Source: an uncultured Planctomycetales bacterium (GTDB lineage: Bacteria > Planctomycetota > Planctomycetia > Isosphaerales > Isosphaeraceae). From it: 64,000 nucleotides of DNA. The stretch covers positions 186,001 through 250,000 of the forward strand of contig CAIYJE010000067.1 of assembly GCA_903926465.1 (NCBI GenBank), given 5' to 3'. The notes under the pieces were generated by a model. The model ran no database searches and was not told the DNA's origin. It saw only the letters and a list, made by a program, of their open reading frames with translations. Numbering within the stretch: position 1 is the first letter of the stretch; each line of letters starts with the position of its first letter. A program made the translations under genes and the position numbers. Below, piece after piece: positions 48,010-55,175 of this stretch.

Positions 48010-48858
48010 ATGGCTGAATGGTGGGTTCGAGGTAAGCCATTTGCTGGCCGTGGACATGCTCCCAAGCTCATGGCCGTTCTGAACGTGACTCCCGATAGTT
48101 TCTCCGACGGTGGCTCTTTTGTGGCCATTGAAGCGGCTGTAGATCATGCGCTACGGCTTGAAGATCAGGGGGCGGATCTCATCGACATTGGCGGCGAATC
48201 CAGTCGTCCAGGCGCAACGCCGGTACCTCTGGATGAGGAGCGGAGGCGTGTACTACCGGTTCTGGAAGCGCTTGAGGGGCGGCTGTCGGTTCCCATCTCC
48301 ATTGATACGATGAAGCCCGAGCTTGCACGAGCGGCCATCGAACGAGGCGCTTCCATTCTGAACGATATCGGAGGGCTGCGCGACCCCGCCATGCTTGAAC
48401 TGGCGGTTTCTACTGGCACCTCGGTGGTCATCATGCACATGGCGGGCACTCCGCAAACCATGCAGCTTGATCCGGTTTATGACGATGTGGTGGAGGCTGT
48501 TCTGGGATATCTGGCCGCCCAGGTGAGCACCGCCGAGGCGGCCGGTCTTGCCCGTACCAAAATTGCCCTCGACCCAGGCATTGGCTTTGGGAAAACGGCC
48601 GCCCACAATGTTGCGATCTTGCGAGATCTGGAGCGTTTTGACACGCTGGGTTGTTCAATTTTGGTGGGATTGTCTCGAAAACGCTTTATTGGAGCGGTCA
48701 CCGGGCGTCCAATTGACGATCGCCTGATTGGTTCCGTCGTGGCTTCGCTGGCGTCTGTGTATCATGGAGCGGCTGTGGTTCGGGTTCATGAGCCTGGTCC
48801 CATGCTTGACGCAATTCGGATCTGGGACACCCTGGTTGGCTGGTCGGAGAGATCTTGA
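48010..48858 (+). CDS. folP: Dihydropteroate synthase
   Basis: From ATG 48010 (AGAGGA seven bases upstream) it has 282 residues. Signature motifs are [36 protein letters not shown] and LSRKRFIG, which form the pterin and pABA sites. It makes 7,8-dihydropteroate for folate. The frame is open back to 47893 but that stretch is non-conserved and follows the terminator. The stop overlaps the start of proA (TGATG), so both are on one transcript. The short extra N-terminus ([17 protein letters not shown]) precedes the core. Confidence 0.96.
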
Positions 48859-50141
48859 TGACGGTTGCTTCCACGCCTCACGAAGGCCCCCTTTACTCCG
48901 AATGCCGCACGCTTGCCGACAATGCCCGAGCGGCAAGCCGTCAACTGGCAACGATTCGGGGTGAAGCTAAAGACCGCTGGCTGGTTCGTGCTATCGCTCA
49001 TCTGGCGGCCGGCCGTGATGAAATTTTGGCCGCCAATGCGCGAGATCTGGCTGCTGCGCCTGGGTACGGACTCTCTTCGGCCGCCATTGATCGGCTGAAA
49101 CTCAATGAAAAGCGGCTCGATGATCTTGCCAACGCCGTTCAAGGGGTTCGGGCCTTGCCCGACCCGATTGGCGAAGTCGTTCAGTCGAGCAGGCGACCCA
49201 ACGGCCTGGAAGTTCAGCAGGTGCGTGTGCCGTTGGGAGTGATCTTCTTCATCTATGAGAGCCGCCCCAATGTGACCGTGGATGCCGCTGCACTCTGCGT
49301 GAAAAGTGGAAACGCCGTTATCCTTCGAGGTGGGAAAGAAGCCCTTCATTCCAATCGCGCCATCTATGCAAGGCTGGTTGATGCCCTGATCGAGTCTGGT
49401 CTTCCACAGCATGCCGTTCAACTTGTTGAGACCACCGACCGCGATGCGGTCGGGCATTTGCTGGGCATGGCCGACCGAATCGACCTGGCCATTCCGCGCG
49501 GCGGTGAGAGCCTGATCCGTCGAGTGGCGGCCGAGGCTCGAATGCCCGTGATGAAGCACTTTCACGGGAACTGCCACGTTTACGTAGACGATTCCGCGAA
49601 TCTGAGCATGGCCGAGCGGATCATCGTGAACTCCAAGGTTCAGCGCCCCGGTGTGTGCAATGCCGCGGAAACCCTGCTTGTCCACCGAGCCATTGCGCCC
49701 ACGTTCCTCCCTCAGGTGGCAGCCGCGCTAGACGCTGCGGGGGTCGAGATTCGTGGCGATGAAGTCGCCCGTTCTTTGGTCCCATCCGTGGTGCCTGCAA
49801 CCCCTGCAGACTGGGACACCGAGTTTCTGGACCTGATCTTGGCGGTTCGGGTGGTGGATTCGTTTGAAGACGCTCTGGATCATATTGAGCGTCATGGGTC
49901 TGGACATACCGAGGCCATTGTCACCGGTCAGTTCTTGGCTGCTCGAGAATTCATGAATCGGGTGGATAGTTCCTGCGTGGTTGTGAATGCCTCGACCCGG
50001 TTCAATGATGGGGGTGAGCTTGGCCTGGGTGCTGAAATTGGTATCAGTACCGACAAGTTCCACGCGCGTGGGCCTTGCGGCCTACGTGAGCTCACGAGCA
50101 CCAAGTGGATTGTGCAGGGAGACGGGCAGATTCGCGGGTAA
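48858..50141 (+). CDS. proA: Gamma-glutamyl phosphate reductase
   Basis: The 427-residue enzyme has the aldehyde dehydrogenase-like ProA fold: [29 protein letters not shown], the catalytic Cys in [12 protein letters not shown], and a C-terminal [20 protein letters not shown]. It reduces gamma-glutamyl phosphate to glutamate semialdehyde in proline synthesis, using NADPH. The ATG at 48858 overlaps the folP stop; length is normal. proB is not in the window. It is convergent with the sigma-54-like regulator (16 bp between stops). Confidence 0.96.
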
Positions 50142-50157: not shown

Positions 50158-51537
50158 TCAGCCGCGATACTGCTCCAACGGGATCTCATATTTCTTGACC
50201 TTGGCGCTCACCAGTTGGCGTGAGATGCCGCAGTGTCTGGCCGAAGGTGCGATCTGGCCACGATAACGGCGGAGCACATGCTCAAGATAACTGCGTTCAA
50301 CCAGTTCAACCGCTTCGGCGGTCTGGGTGCCGAGCGGTTGCGAGATATCCACCATACCTGATGCGAACCTGGTATCGGCCGATTGGGCACTCTGGTGGCG
50401 ACCGGTACCCCAGAAGTTAAGAATTGGGCCTTTGGCAAGCGCACAGGCGGTGCGTAACTCTTCCTGGAGTTCTTTCACGTTTCTGGGCCAGTGATGCGCC
50501 ATGAACTGGGTCAGAACGTTCGTGGAAATTCCCGTGATCGGCGGGAAGCAGAGATCGGCATCTTGTTTGAGGAAATGAAAGAGAAGGGGGGCGATTTCCT
50601 CGCGTCGTTCACGCAGCGGCGGCAAGCTAATTCTGAGCCCTTGGAGGGTCTGGAACAGGTCGAGCCGGAACCCTTTTTCGTGAAGCCGTTCTTCGAGGCT
50701 CTTGTCGGCAATCGCGATAATTCGGACATCGGCCCGATCGGTCTGCTCTGCACCTACGCGCCTGTAGGTTCCGGTTTGCAGATATTCAAGGAGCATGGTT
50801 TGAACCTGCTCCGTCATGGCTGCAATATCTTCCAGCACCAGCGTACCGTTCTCCGCGGCGGAGATTGCCCCTTCGCTTTCGGCCTCATCGTTGGCAAAGG
50901 CGCCTGGTTCCTTACCAAAGAGTTTGGCACCAACCCGAGCGGGGTCCATTGAGCCACAGTCCAGGGTGATCATGGGCCCTGTGGATCTTGGCCCGGATTC
51001 ATGAATCAGTTGTGCCAGGTGGCTGCGGCCTGAGCCGGTTTCGCCATGAATCAGCAGAGGGATTCTTAACGGAGCAACCCGGCCGATCATGGCACCAGCG
51101 GCCCGCATCGCTTCACTGCGGGCGACCCATCGGTTGGTGTGGCCTGCACCCTGGCTCAGTCGCCGTTTCAACCGCTCTTGCTGCTCTGAAAGCTGGAGTT
51201 GATCCCGAACGCGGAGGATCTGGGTTTTGGCTTGTCTGGGCGAAGCGCCACGGAGAATCAGGCCGTTGACACCCGCTGAACGTGCCAGCTTAACTGCCGA
51301 CCGATCGCCAGCTTCGATGATCGCCACCCAGCTCTTGATCGTTGTGGGGCGGCTTGAACGATCGGCCATCCACTCAATCATGCGGCGGTCGAGAGTGACC
51401 AGTACATCTACGGATCGTTGAGCCAAGTCGTCCGGCTCCAGACGATGCTCGACCGTTAGCCCGGAATCCTCGAAGCTTTGCAAGTAAGTGCAGGCATCCT
51501 CGGCAGATCCGCCCAGGAGCACCAGGTGGCGTGTCAT
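50158..51537 (-). CDS. Sigma-54-type AAA+ regulator with degenerate motifs and Fis-like HTH
   Basis: The 459-residue protein has a receiver-like N-terminal domain (about 1-115) without obvious phosphoacceptor Asp, a sigma-54 interaction AAA+ domain (about 140-380) and a Fis-type HTH (ARHCGISRQLVSAKVKKYEI). Several essential residues differ from the active family: Walker A GETGSGRS has Arg 171 for Lys, the sigma-contact loop GAFTGA is GAFAND (212-217), Walker B is LVLEDI, and sensor II WPGNVREL is WPRNVKEL. It therefore probably does not open sigma-54 promoters and may act by DNA binding alone. AGGATG-like ribosome site five to six bases upstream of ATG 51537; another ATG is two codons earlier. 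Confidence 0.85.
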   Translation of the reverse strand: MTRHLVLLGGSAEDACTYLQSFEDSGLTVEHRLEPDDLAQRSVDVLVTLDRRMIEWMADRSSRPTTIKSWVAIIEAGDRSAVKLARSAGVNGLILRGASPRQAKTQILRVRDQLQLSEQQERLKRRLSQGAGHTNRWVARSEAMRAAGAMIGRVAPLRIPLLIHGETGSGRSHLAQLIHESGPRSTGPMITLDCGSMDPARVGAKLFGKEPGAFANDEAESEGAISAAENGTLVLEDIAAMTEQVQTMLLEYLQTGTYRRVGAEQTDRADVRIIAIADKSLEERLHEKGFRLDLFQTLQGLRISLPPLRERREEIAPLLFHFLKQDADLCFPPITGISTNVLTQFMAHHWPRNVKELQEELRTACALAKGPILNFWGTGRHQSAQSADTRFASGMVDISQPLGTQTAEAVELVERSYLEHVLRRYRGQIAPSARHCGISRQLVSAKVKKYEIPLEQYRG

Positions 51538-52092
51538 GAGCATCCTTTCCCGACACGGGTATCAAGCTCGGCCGCACAACTCCCGGAGAAGACGAACCAC
51601 CGAACCGCCTGCGAGTCGAATTGATCACGCAAGTTGGCGGTATTTTACCAGCTGACCCACCAGATTTCACCTGGTCGATTCATGCCAGCCCTGCCGAGGG
51701 CGATTGTTCGGATGGTAAATCCAGAGAGATTCGCCGGTTACGTAATCTGGTCAATCAAGGCCACCTGGTGGGTCGTCTGAGCCCAGAGCCATTATCAAAC
51801 CGGCTCCAAGGGGAGCGGTGCGAGGATTGGGGTCTGATTGCCAGAGTTTGGGAGGGGCAAGCGCACTCACAGGTCGGTTTCGGATTGGAACCAGACGCCA
51901 ATGAATGCCTACCAACTTTCCAAACAAGATCGCCCAGGGTTGTTGGCCCTGGGCGATCTTCCAACGCTCGTTTTAGCTCAAAGCAGAGACTGTGAGGCCT
52001 GGGTGGCTTGCGGGTACTCGGTTTCTGAGCGGCTGATTCTTTTTCCCACGGTTCAGGGAGGGCCTTGGAAGCGGGCCTGCGCTTGCAAGCTC
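51538..52092. other. Long intergenic region, no supported gene
   Basis: This 555-bp stretch lies between the sigma-54-like regulator start and the end of the minus-strand TPR-type gene. The only clear element is the 14-bp hairpin at 51926-51960. Open frames here (for example 51621-51995 plus) have no recognisable domain or good ribosome site. The promoter of the regulator gene should be within its first 200 bp. Confidence 0.5.
51926..51960 (-). terminator. Strong hairpin, probable terminator of the minus-strand operon
   Basis: A perfect 14-bp inverted repeat (AAGATCGCCCAGGG/CCCTGGGCGATCTT) with a 7-base loop lies about 130 bp downstream of the minus-strand gene ending at 52093. The minus-strand side is followed by GTTTGG, the plus side by CGTTTTAG, neither a long T tract, so termination is plausible rather than certain. 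Confidence 0.5.
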
Positions 52093-53256
52093 TCAGCGAA
52101 TTCCTGCCCCTTCAGTTTTTGGCTTTTTGGCAGATTCCGGGTCAATGGATGGGCGTTTCTTGCTCTCGCCAGGGGCGGGCACGCGCAGGGCATCGGCTGG
52201 ATCAACGGTTCGGCCGCTGGTTCCCGTCGGTTTGGCGGTTTTCGCCGCGTCGGCTGTGGCTTCGATCTCTTCGATATCCATTCGCAGTCGGGTTGGGGCC
52301 GTGAAAGGCAGCACCTTGGTACGACGGCCGCCCTGGAGTGTTACGGTGACCGGTTCGGTGGAGTTGAGGTTCACAGCACGCGATTCTTGTTTCTCGTCAG
52401 GGCTTCCCTCATGCGTGATCACCTCAAGGGTCACGTCATGGGCAGGGTCTTTGGGGTTGTTGTAGAGGGTGTCTACCTGAACCTCGTAATTGCCTTCAAA
52501 ACCGAGTGGGCAAACATACTCGCTTTCAGCATGCTTTCCACGGCCGGCTTTGATAATCGAGCCGCCGAACACGGTGCGTGGTTCAGCGACCGAGGCTTGT
52601 GCCCCTAGCGGTTCTTTCACACGCAGTTCCAGTCCGGCGTCCCCTTTCCAGGTCAATCGCAGGAAGAGGTCACGGGGTTCGCTGGACTGAAGGTGGGCAC
52701 GCAGGGTGCTGGCTTCCTCGGCTTTGCCGGCCCGTTCGAGTTTCAGGGCCATGGCCTCCACCCGCTTGCGAGTTTCGGTTCTCCAGAGTTCGTCATAGCC
52801 TGGCCAGCCAATGGAGAGCAGGTTGTCTGCCGTGCTGGCCATCCGGACCGGGTCGTTGGTTTTTTCCGCCAGAAGCATGGAAAGCAGAATTGGCTCGTAA
52901 CGGTGAGGGGCCTTTTCATGGGCCAGGTCGAGCAGCTCACCGGTCCGAATGGGTGGTTGGTTATTGGGTAGTGGCAGTTCGCTGATGTCGCGCAGGATGA
53001 GAATGTCGGCCACCTCGATCAGGGTGAACGGATCTTTCTGTCTTCTGGCAAGATAGCCGGCCCAGGCCAGGGCGGTTTTGGCACTTTCGGGCGATCGGCC
53101 ATTCACTTCGTACGTCACGGCCAAAAGCAGGTACATCCAGGGTTCAGCCCGGGTTCCGTGGTATTTCAGATAAGAGGCGATCGCTTGTTCAACCTCACCC
53201 ATGCGATTGAACTGACGTAGAAACCGGACATCGTAAAGCAACTGGGCGGGTGACAC
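52093..53256 (-). CDS. TPR-like protein with C-terminal beta domain, start unresolved
   Basis: The only standard start is GTG 53256, giving 387 residues, but it has no ribosome site, and the in-frame codons before it (VVDYDSHYKTHD) look coding. The N-terminal about 200 residues are helical and TPR-like (VEQAIASYLKYHGTRAEPWMYLLLAVTYEVNG). The following about 120 residues form a beta domain (LFLRLTWKGDAGLELRVKEP, YEVQVDTLYNNP), and the end is Lys/Pro/Ala-rich. Without a signal peptide of its own, it may be expressed only as an extension of the upstream protein through a frameshift at A9. Function is unknown. A hairpin terminator follows. Confidence 0.6.
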   Translation of the reverse strand: MSPAQLLYDVRFLRQFNRMGEVEQAIASYLKYHGTRAEPWMYLLLAVTYEVNGRSPESAKTALAWAGYLARRQKDPFTLIEVADILILRDISELPLPNNQPPIRTGELLDLAHEKAPHRYEPILLSMLLAEKTNDPVRMASTADNLLSIGWPGYDELWRTETRKRVEAMALKLERAGKAEEASTLRAHLQSSEPRDLFLRLTWKGDAGLELRVKEPLGAQASVAEPRTVFGGSIIKAGRGKHAESEYVCPLGFEGNYEVQVDTLYNNPKDPAHDVTLEVITHEGSPDEKQESRAVNLNSTEPVTVTLQGGRRTKVLPFTAPTRLRMDIEEIEATADAAKTAKPTGTSGRTVDPADALRVPAPGESKKRPSIDPESAKKPKTEGAGIR

Positions 53257-53447: not shown

Positions 53448-55175
53448 TCAGGGCGTTTTTTTTTGAAGGAATGAGTTGGCGTCTGGGGCACCTGGAACCT
53501 GTGGTGGTGCCGGTGGGATGGAACCGAATCCACCACCCATACCGCCACCGCCCATACCACCGCCGCCCATACCGCCACCACCCATACCGCCCATGCCACC
53601 GCCACCCATACCGCCACCGCCCATACCGCCGCCACCCATACCACCACCGCCCATACCGCCACCCATGCCACCGCCCATACCGCCACCACCACCGCCGCCG
53701 GTCATCAGTGAGATTGGGATCATGGCGAGGTCAGCGACCGGGTAAACCTTGATCTCGATGGGCAGATCTTTAGACCCGATGTAGGTAATGGTCATGAGTC
53801 CGTCTTTGACGGTGTAGGTCATGTCGAGCTGCTTGAGCAAGAGGCGAAGCGACTTCTTCAGAGGCACGCCATCCAGCTTGAGCTGGACAGGGCTCTGCAT
53901 TGTCTTTTCCGCTTCCTGAAGCCCGGCGGGATCCACGTAGATGGGAATACCCTTGGGAAGCCTTGGGTTATTCAATTCCGTGGTGGCCGACTGGATGTAC
54001 TTGAGCACGTTCTCAAGCGGTTCTTCAGGGTCGAACGGCATCGAGATTTCCTGATCCAGGGCGTCATAAATCGCCTGAGTCTTCTCGTCTTTGCTATCGA
54101 GAGAGACCGACTCATAGCGACGAATTCGCTTCTCGGAAATTTCACGCCAGCGAGCAGCCGATGGGTACTCGATGGTGATGGTGTCCGGGAACGGAACGCT
54201 TGCCCGGTCAACGTCCGAGAGTGTCATCAGGAAGCGGTATCGCTTCAGTTCCTCGAACTGGAGTTGCTGGAGCAAGAACCCCTCGAACGAGGCCTTGTAG
54301 ATACCAGCCCAGGGGGCTTCGGCGCGGGGGATGAGTGCGCGAGCATGCTGAGCAGCAAGCCGAGCTTCAAAAAACGGAGCCGTTGCGGCCTGAATGTCGC
54401 CGGTACCGCCGTTGTAGAGAACGTTGTAAACGCCCTGATCCATCAACCGGTCATACTGGTTCATGAGAACCTTGACCGTGGCCTGGGTCCGTTCCTGCTC
54501 GCTAACCTGTCTGGCCAGTTCGTCAGACATGCCGGCCCGGCGCATTGCCTCGGCCTGTTCCAGTTCCAGTTCTTCCTCACGGCGAACGGTGGACTGGATC
54601 TGGGTTTGCAGTTCTCTGCGAAGCTGGTTCCGGATTTCGTCGGGAACTCCTTCCGAGGTTTGCAAGGCGTTAATGCCAAGGCGAAGCAGGTTCAGGGCTG
54701 CCTGGGGTTGCCCTTGGTTCAGCAGTTCTCGGGCACGCTGCTGACGCTCACGAATATCGGTGTTGAGTTGCTGGGTTCGCACCCGCTCGGCCTGAGAGGC
54801 AGCCTCAATGGTGGCCGAGGTCTGTGGCTGCTCAATATACGCAGGAGCCGGCGCCAGGGTTGAGCCATCGGCAAACGCAGGAGCCGGAGGCGGAGCGATG
54901 GTGGATCCACCAGCAACGTCTTGAAGGGCCACTTGTTTGACACCCAGGTCCGACAACATGCGGGATGCGTCGGCATTGTCTGGGTTGAGCCGAAGCGCCT
55001 GCTGGACGAACGAGGCCGCTTCCGACTTCTGGCCCTGCGCCAGGGCTTGACGCCCCAGGCCAACCAGTTGCTCGGAGAGAGGCAGATCAGAAGCCGAGGC
55101 CATTCCACTGCTAAAAAGCAGTCCTAGCGTTGCTAGCGGCCCGGCGCCCTTCCACGGTCGCACGGTTTGGGACAT
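53448..55175 (-). CDS. Secreted TPR/secretin-like protein with Gly-Met-rich tail
   Basis: The 575-residue protein has a signal peptide (to about residue 28, ASAS), a TPR-like pair (LGRQALAQGQKSEAASFVQQALRLNPDNADASRMLSDLG), a Pro/Ala linker, and a coiled coil (about 130-220). A domain at about 385-470 has IPIYVDPAGLQEAEKTMQSPVQLKLDGVPLKKSLRLLLKQLDMTYTVKDGLMTITY, resembling the short secretin/STN N-terminal fold. About 57 residues of GGGGM-type repeats follow (see repeat), ending in FGSIPPAPPQVPG. It is probably a periplasmic or surface scaffold. The start ATG at 55175 is supported by the signal. The stop is preceded by an A9 tract. Confidence 0.72.
   Translation of the reverse strand: MSQTVRPWKGAGPLATLGLLFSSGMASASDLPLSEQLVGLGRQALAQGQKSEAASFVQQALRLNPDNADASRMLSDLGVKQVALQDVAGGSTIAPPPAPAFADGSTLAPAPAYIEQPQTSATIEAASQAERVRTQQLNTDIRERQQRARELLNQGQPQAALNLLRLGINALQTSEGVPDEIRNQLRRELQTQIQSTVRREEELELEQAEAMRRAGMSDELARQVSEQERTQATVKVLMNQYDRLMDQGVYNVLYNGGTGDIQAATAPFFEARLAAQHARALIPRAEAPWAGIYKASFEGFLLQQLQFEELKRYRFLMTLSDVDRASVPFPDTITIEYPSAARWREISEKRIRRYESVSLDSKDEKTQAIYDALDQEISMPFDPEEPLENVLKYIQSATTELNNPRLPKGIPIYVDPAGLQEAEKTMQSPVQLKLDGVPLKKSLRLLLKQLDMTYTVKDGLMTITYIGSKDLPIEIKVYPVADLAMIPISLMTGGGGGGGMGGGMGGGMGGGGMGGGGMGGGGMGGGGMGGMGGGGMGGGGMGGGGMGGGFGSIPPAPPQVPGAPDANSFLQKKTP
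53456..53464 (-). repeat. A9 homopolymer near the 3' end of the secretin-like gene
   Basis: Nine T on the plus strand (A on the coding strand), 5 bases before the gene's stop codon. One extra A during transcription (or in the true sequence) would shift translation into frame B, which is open into the gene at 52093. Confidence 0.6.
53531..53701 (-). repeat. Gly-Met minisatellite in coding sequence
   Basis: About eleven units of a short repeat (mostly GGGGM, 15 bp; some GGGM, 12 bp) are arranged in tandem, spanning about 57 residues. Slippage-prone; probably a flexible linker in the secreted protein. Unit number may vary between strains. Confidence 0.85.

Follow-up and report, generated by a model that had tools for sequence, protein, structure and literature searches.

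Introduction

The closest described relatives of the protein studied here (the window protein) are bEBPs without the GAFTGA motif, which, according to the available portion of PMC10274813, act at sigma-70 promoters or as repressors. In the same portion, NtrC of Caulobacter is reported to be both an activator and a repressor and to depend on its Walker A Lys and Walker B Asp, with Asp56 mattering for activation, NtrC of Rhodobacter capsulatus needs ATP binding and not hydrolysis, and VpsR needs no ATP. The accessible part of PMC3162934 counts TyrR, DhaR, HupR, VpsR and YplP as GAFTGA-defective. Like the two NtrC proteins, VpsR, TyrR, DhaR and HupR, as far as excerpts of PMC10274813 and PMC3162934 describe them, the window protein combines the fold of a sigma-54 activator with a defective GAFTGA loop; the sites that matter in Caulobacter NtrC (Walker A Lys, Walker B Asp and Asp56; PMC10274813, in part) are changed in it too. 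It shares with the pseudo-receivers, as excerpted in PMC12632262, a receiver-like region without phosphotransfer residues; unlike in those proteins, this region is joined to an AAA+ domain that is itself degenerate.

GAFTGA-less regulators are thus already in the literature, and the window protein is more eroded than Caulobacter NtrC. Surveys filter out such proteins on GAFTGA, judging from the available parts of PMC12316311 and PMC3162934; a 2025 sigma-54 survey that included Planctomycetota kept only GAFTGA proteins (PMC12316311, in part). Domain searches with Pfam still label them sigma-54 activators. No paper among the matches listed in open-licence literature searches described degenerate activators from these bacteria, and those listed for NtrX and degenerate Walker motifs included no comparable protein; an open-licence search for Planctomycetes with sigma-54 and enhancer binding proteins returned nothing.

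Results

Domain organization of the window protein

The gene lies in a 64,000-nucleotide stretch of Isosphaeraceae DNA (the window), part of contig C67 of a 6.9 Mb genome in 207 contigs (G000). The ORF reported in the initial annotation proved real and occupies 50158..51543 on the minus strand, a point which that annotation omitted, with an ATG at 51543 or 51537 and a product of 459-461 residues. The protein comprises, in order, a receiver-like N-terminal region (approximately residues 1-110, 51208..51537, minus strand, by alignment), a sigma-54-activator AAA+ domain with its lid (50419..51126, minus strand, Pfam) and a Fis-type HTH (50182..50259, minus strand, Pfam and alignment). Sigma54_activat scored 145.8 bits against a cut-off of 20.2 and AAA_lid_14 scored 46.3 bits, with HTH_8, at 22 bits, equal to its cut-off of 22; no receiver domain was matched by Pfam at E up to 10. 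Ranked by sequence, the best PDB chains belong to sigma-54 activators (NifA, ZraR and LuxO, for example), with VpsR and FleQ chains also among the matches. A search of genome contigs returned one distant relative only. An AlphaFold2 model built from the window protein and one homologue had a mean pLDDT of 44, too poor for use.

The gene is still coding, as judged from its open frame and conservative changes (see below). Its GC content at the three codon positions (0.657, 0.462 and 0.636) is close to that of the upstream gene (0.659, 0.463 and 0.636).

Active-site and receiver residues are replaced

To compare motifs, we aligned the window protein with 29 canonical relatives (type A, L003-L031). 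Motif names and roles are those in general use for sigma-54 activators, with help from the available part of PMC7175178. The Walker A motif (51022..51045, minus strand) reads GETGSGRS, as against the canonical GETGTGKE; its glycines are retained and the Lys is replaced by R171. The Walker B acidic residues (50827..50832, minus strand) are ED, E236-D237, in place of DE. The L1 loop (50887..50904, minus strand) reads GAFAND rather than GAFTGA, and we regard it as altered rather than deleted because its first three residues (GAF) and its length are unchanged. At the sensor I position (50704..50706, minus strand), Asp278 stands where the canonical relatives have Asn or His. In the R-finger segment (50647..50667, minus strand) the first Arg, R291, is kept and the second is replaced by T297, and the sensor II Arg (50473..50475, minus strand) is replaced by K355. 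The proposed loss of the GAFTGA loop, the Walker A Lys and the sensor residues is thereby borne out, with the loop altered and not deleted. The protein therefore carries the Sigma54_activat domain and Fis-type HTH of a sigma-54 activator and lacks its GAFTGA, Walker A Lys, Walker B Asp-Glu, sensor I Asn, pair of R-fingers and sensor II Arg; a bEBP fold without GAFTGA is the mark of GAFTGA-less sigma-70-type regulators.

Within the receiver-like region, the acidic pair DD has become GG, the Thr Ile and the Lys Arg, leaving none of the canonical set (acidic pair, phosphoacceptor Asp, Thr/Ser and Lys) in place. An Asp, Asp50, occurs one residue away from the phosphoacceptor position, and two alignments place it differently; because it adjoins that position, the statement that no phosphoacceptor is visible was only partly right.

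The HTH had been called intact. It keeps 11 of the 13 C-terminal positions that are invariant in 28 canonical type-A proteins; the recognition helix has changed, from SRRSVTQKLQKY in the canonical relatives to SRQLVSAKVKKY.

Canonical relatives at the same chromosomal position

The window protein was searched against all 45 genomes of the family, all of which gave a match at E up to 1e-30, one match being the window gene itself. Type A denotes the 29 other loci with the best E-values that were read; they are 31-35% identical to the window protein. In all 29, the L1 loop fits the pattern G[AS]F[TS]xA, the Walker A Lys and Walker B DE are present, as are the second R-finger and sensor II Arg, and sensor I is N or H. 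The receiver residues are kept in the 28 receivers read; L008, whose receiver part falls outside the frame read, was left out of the count of invariant sites. Type A thus shares with the window protein its receiver-AAA+-Fis architecture and C-terminal signature, and differs in keeping the Walker, loop, sensor, R-finger and receiver residues.

Upstream of the window gene lies a gene at 52093..53256 (minus strand; labelled TPR, yet without a Pfam family above cut-off), which served as the synteny anchor in comparisons across genomes, and on the other side is a convergent proA-like gene (48855..50141, plus strand, named from its translation). A TPR protein with a long Gly/Met-rich tail is encoded at 53448-55175 on the minus strand, and in many relatives fragments of it are matched next to the upstream gene. 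The upstream gene has a match in 44 of the 45 genomes. In 22 of the 45, coordinate comparison puts the top match to the window protein on the same strand as this gene and 0.5-3.1 kb downstream; the 18 of these loci that were read are all canonical, the remaining four being those of G002, G027, G028 and G029. Counting against positional orthology, 11 of the 29 type-A loci lie apart from the upstream gene: those of G037 and G038 are more than 100 kb from it on the same contig, and nine are on other contigs, some near contig ends.

Most type-A genes have an HtrA-like gene upstream (Trypsin_2 and PDZ by Pfam in four examples tested), found at 23 of the 27 loci where the upstream DNA exceeds 1 kb (for example L065, L067, L071 and L162; L005 and L026 have less DNA). 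The window gene shares the upstream gene with type A and has no HtrA-like gene; none was found beside it or beside its counterpart in G004 (see below). Loss of the HtrA-like gene is insufficient as the cause of degeneracy and was rejected as such, because four of the 27 type-A loci (L017, L021, L025 and L028) are without it and yet canonical, and because G000 and G004 both carry HtrA-like genes elsewhere in the genome.

A degenerate counterpart in another genus

In G004, a genome of another genus, the same upstream gene and proA, in the same arrangement, flank an ORF (L033, 4199-5683) that is degenerate too; three neighbouring proteins are 56-67% identical between G000 and G004. L033 keeps the Walker A Lys (GERGSGKT) and the sensor II Arg, has EE at Walker B and Ser at sensor I, and has both R-fingers changed and an L1 loop shortened beyond recognition. 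Four of the five receiver residues are lost. Its HTH is eroded, with five of the 13 invariant positions kept and no Pfam match to HTH_8 at E up to 0.01, so that conservation of DNA binding across the degenerate pair is unsupported. The degeneracy goes beyond chance, because all 29 type-A proteins keep the motifs and degeneracy recurs at this locus in another genus.

Phylogenetic placement and divergence

A tree of 71 proteins, from which L096 and L100 were omitted, unites the window protein with L033 at 98/97, the two branches being 1.66 and 2.4 long. Types A, B and C share an unresolved group with this pair, which falls outside type A (itself 89/87). In a 35-row tree with 10 of the 29 type-A rows, the pair joins type A at 69/91; by the AU test on that tree, a placement with type B is disfavoured (p 0.04), and one with type C (p 0.30) or with the other degenerate pair (p 0.34) is statistically tenable. 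Because such long branches make the placement unsure, orthology rests mainly on synteny.

The two degenerate genes have diverged far faster than five other G000-G004 pairs. The path between them in the 71-row tree (summed branches) is about 4.1 changes per column, as compared with 0.28-0.81 for those pairs (L037/L088, 0.28; L036/L093, 0.31; L039/L098, 0.32; L034/L099, 0.58; L040/L094, 0.81), and their AAA+ domains are 34% identical, as compared with 63-84%. Among the other degenerate G000-G004 pairs, the paths are about 1.05 for L043/L095 and 5.0 for L044/L097, with AAA+ identities of 52% for L043/L095, 34% for L044/L097 and 45% for L046/L100.

Selection on the degenerate genes

Neutral evolution was simulated 100 times per level, starting from L003 and running to the identity observed; L003 here substitutes for the ancestor, and the alignment itself favours similar letters. 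At the level of the window gene, the simulated sequences acquired a mean of 7.1 stops (minimum 2), and at that of L033 a mean of 7.5 (minimum 1), as against none observed in either. The mean BLOSUM62 score at changed sites, read with the same two limits, is -0.16 for the window protein, as against -0.75 (sd 0.10) under neutrality, a difference of about 6 sd, and -0.46 for L033, as against -0.80 (sd 0.10), or 3.4 sd.

Retention was then counted at invariant sites, defined by at most one exception among the 28 type-A proteins, with the HTH class comprising the C-terminal 60 columns. Of the 15 functional AAA+ sites, 6 are kept in the window protein and 6 in L033; of the 83 other AAA+ sites, 44 and 35, respectively; and of the 13 C-terminal sites, 11 and 5. 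The HTH is thus better kept than the AAA+ domain in the window protein (11/13 versus 50/98, p 0.035), with no such difference in L033 (p 1.0). Targeted loss of catalytic sites is unsupported: functional sites were lost no more often than other invariant AAA+ sites (p 0.26 for the window protein and p 0.55 for L033), and general relaxation is therefore possible.

Promoter and operator scans

Approximately 100 bases upstream of the window gene, at 51642..51670 on the minus strand, there is a sigma-70-like promoter match (9/12, with TG before the second hexamer), one having been found where shuffles predict 0.2; it is weak evidence for the gene's own transcription. Sigma-54 -24/-12 sites were sought upstream of type-A genes (19 stretches, with some genomes contributing more than one) and of HtrA-like genes (11 of these). 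No site stood clearly above shuffles: even in the best case, a fraction of 0.24 of the shuffles scored as high, and HtrA as a target is therefore unsupported. At 51926-51960, downstream of the upstream gene, a perfect 14-base inverted repeat with a 7-base loop looks terminator-like by eye; a strict terminator scan did not accept it. This hairpin is the sole inverted repeat found upstream of the window gene, and it is not an obvious operator, sitting as it does behind the upstream gene.

Loss of GAFTGA elsewhere in the family

The window protein's own genome has 20 Sigma54_activat matches, the 14 best-scoring of which were read. The loop reads G[AS]FTGA in seven of them and GAFTDA or GAFTNA in two, and it is lost from the other five (the window protein, L043, L044, L045 and L046). 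Five of the 10 read out of 18 matches in G004 are likewise without it (L033, L094, L095, L097 and L100).

Two of these proteins represent widespread types. The L043 type has a match in 40 of the 45 genomes at E up to 1e-60, and none of the 30 loci read has GAFTGA at the aligned loop, with one GAFSSA elsewhere in L128; the L046 type is matched in 39 of 45 genomes (E up to 1e-45), and none of the 30 read shows the loop pattern. Both resemble the window protein in lacking GAFTGA at the aligned loop and in their eroded AAA+ domain, with the HTH well kept in the 30 read of each; they are unlike it in being widespread and in retaining, in most of the loci read, the Walker A Lys. L043 itself (also L101; G000 C67:143861-145375, outside the window) has HP as its acidic pair, and the HTH of its type is nearly invariant in the 30 read. 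L046 (also L169) lies at G000 C77:16918-18327.

L044 and L097 fall beside canonical type B at 72/99 (not starred) in the 35-row tree. All 29 type-B members read (L132-L160) have the loop, and a second response regulator thus appears to have undergone conversion within the same lineage. L044 (G000 C160:44609-46144) and L097 (G004) are near clpB-like and dnaK-like genes, as read from translations. L094 of G004 has lost the loop and keeps Walker A, Walker B, the sensor I Asn and the R-fingers, and its counterpart in the window protein's genome, L040, keeps the loop; L094 may represent a first step of conversion. The type-C regulators of eight relatives (L073-L077 and L079-L081) have GAFTSA or GSFTSA, and the G000 copy, L035, has GSFTGA.

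Discussion

We favour, with moderate confidence, the reading that the window gene is the positional orthologue of the family's type-A receiver-AAA+-Fis regulator, that it has no sigma-54 activator function, and that its product acts as a DNA-binding regulator. On motif roles, phosphorylation control would be unlikely because the receiver residues are absent, ATP hydrolysis because the Walker A Lys, Walker B, sensor residues and second R-finger are changed, and sigma-54 contact and holoenzyme remodelling because the TGA of GAFTGA is changed. What remains would be a folded scaffold and an HTH, that is, a DNA-binding protein, probably dimeric, in which the AAA+ and receiver folds may serve as scaffold or sensor. 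With the sigma-54 engine apparently lost yet the gene intact, simple DNA binding is probable. By analogy with other GAFTGA-less proteins, as portrayed in parts of PMC10274813 and PMC3162934, a repressor or a sigma-70-type regulator is the natural reading; the window protein may repress, or modulate sigma-70-type promoters, and since its recognition helix is changed, its binding sites may differ from those of canonical type A.

The initial annotation had proposed a regulator that binds DNA and cannot activate sigma-54. The latter part is well supported by sequence: the residues for ATP use and sigma-54 contact are changed, the loss recurs at the same place in another genus, and the frame is open with conservative changes. 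The former derives from the HTH alone, which is eroded in G004. That erosion, together with the Walker A Lys and sensor II Arg kept by L033, a possible general relaxation, the type-A loci away from the upstream gene, the negative sigma-54 promoter scan and the uncertain tree placement, counts against the reading that we favour.

An alternative is a relic in slow decay, with function mostly gone and the frame held open by weak residual selection only. The very long branches, the spread of losses over invariant sites generally, the absence of the HtrA-like gene beside both degenerate loci and the eroded HTH of G004 speak for it; we nevertheless consider it unlikely, given frames open in two genera, changes more conservative than neutral in both genes, the coding GC pattern and, in the window gene, an HTH better kept than the AAA+ domain. 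The protein could instead be an antagonist that blocks sigma-54 activation, either by competing with a canonical regulator such as L035 for its enhancer sites or by forming mixed assemblies with that regulator. In favour of this, the genome carries a related canonical response regulator, L035 (on contig C145), and a single match to the sigma-54 DNA-binding domain, with its frame open, and the C-terminal region of the window protein resembles that of type A. The changed recognition helix speaks against this proposal, as does G004, where none of the eight proteins in the tree (L096 and L100 left out) groups with type C, yet the degenerate gene is kept, and we regard antagonism as distinctly unlikely.

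A ligand-gated sigma-70 activator of the VpsR type, in which a ligand such as c-di-GMP replaces ATP, seems improbable. VpsR and FleQ chains do appear among the PDB sequence matches, and VpsR, without GAFTGA, regulates sigma-70 promoters with no need of ATP (PMC10274813, available portion). In VfmH, an Arg after Walker A is used for c-di-GMP, according to an excerpt of PMC10714721. The corresponding residue of the window protein seems to be Gln in an alignment to a FleQ sequence, a weak objection given that type A also has Gln or Arg there. Least probable is a protein that still activates sigma-54 with unusual residues. Retention of GAF in the loop, of the first R-finger and of the Walker A glycines would fit it, but the Walker A Lys, Walker B, the L1 loop, both sensors and the second R-finger are changed together, a combination seen in none of the 29 type-A proteins.

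For the family as a whole, we tentatively propose, while holding it to be less likely than not, that sigma-54 activators were turned repeatedly and stepwise, losing the loop and then the ATP site and receiver, into pseudo-AAA+ factors. The window gene would be one of two conversions apparently common to genera g1 and g3, besides two older types present in most of the family. Within one family, what is probably a single gene occurs at one locus in both intact and eroded form, and a different gene, L094, shows a possible first step; the route from an ATP-driven activator to a plain DNA-binding regulator, including whether targets are retained or changed, is therefore testable here. If true, a two-component, ATP-driven switch would have become a constitutive or ligand-gated DNA-binding regulator.
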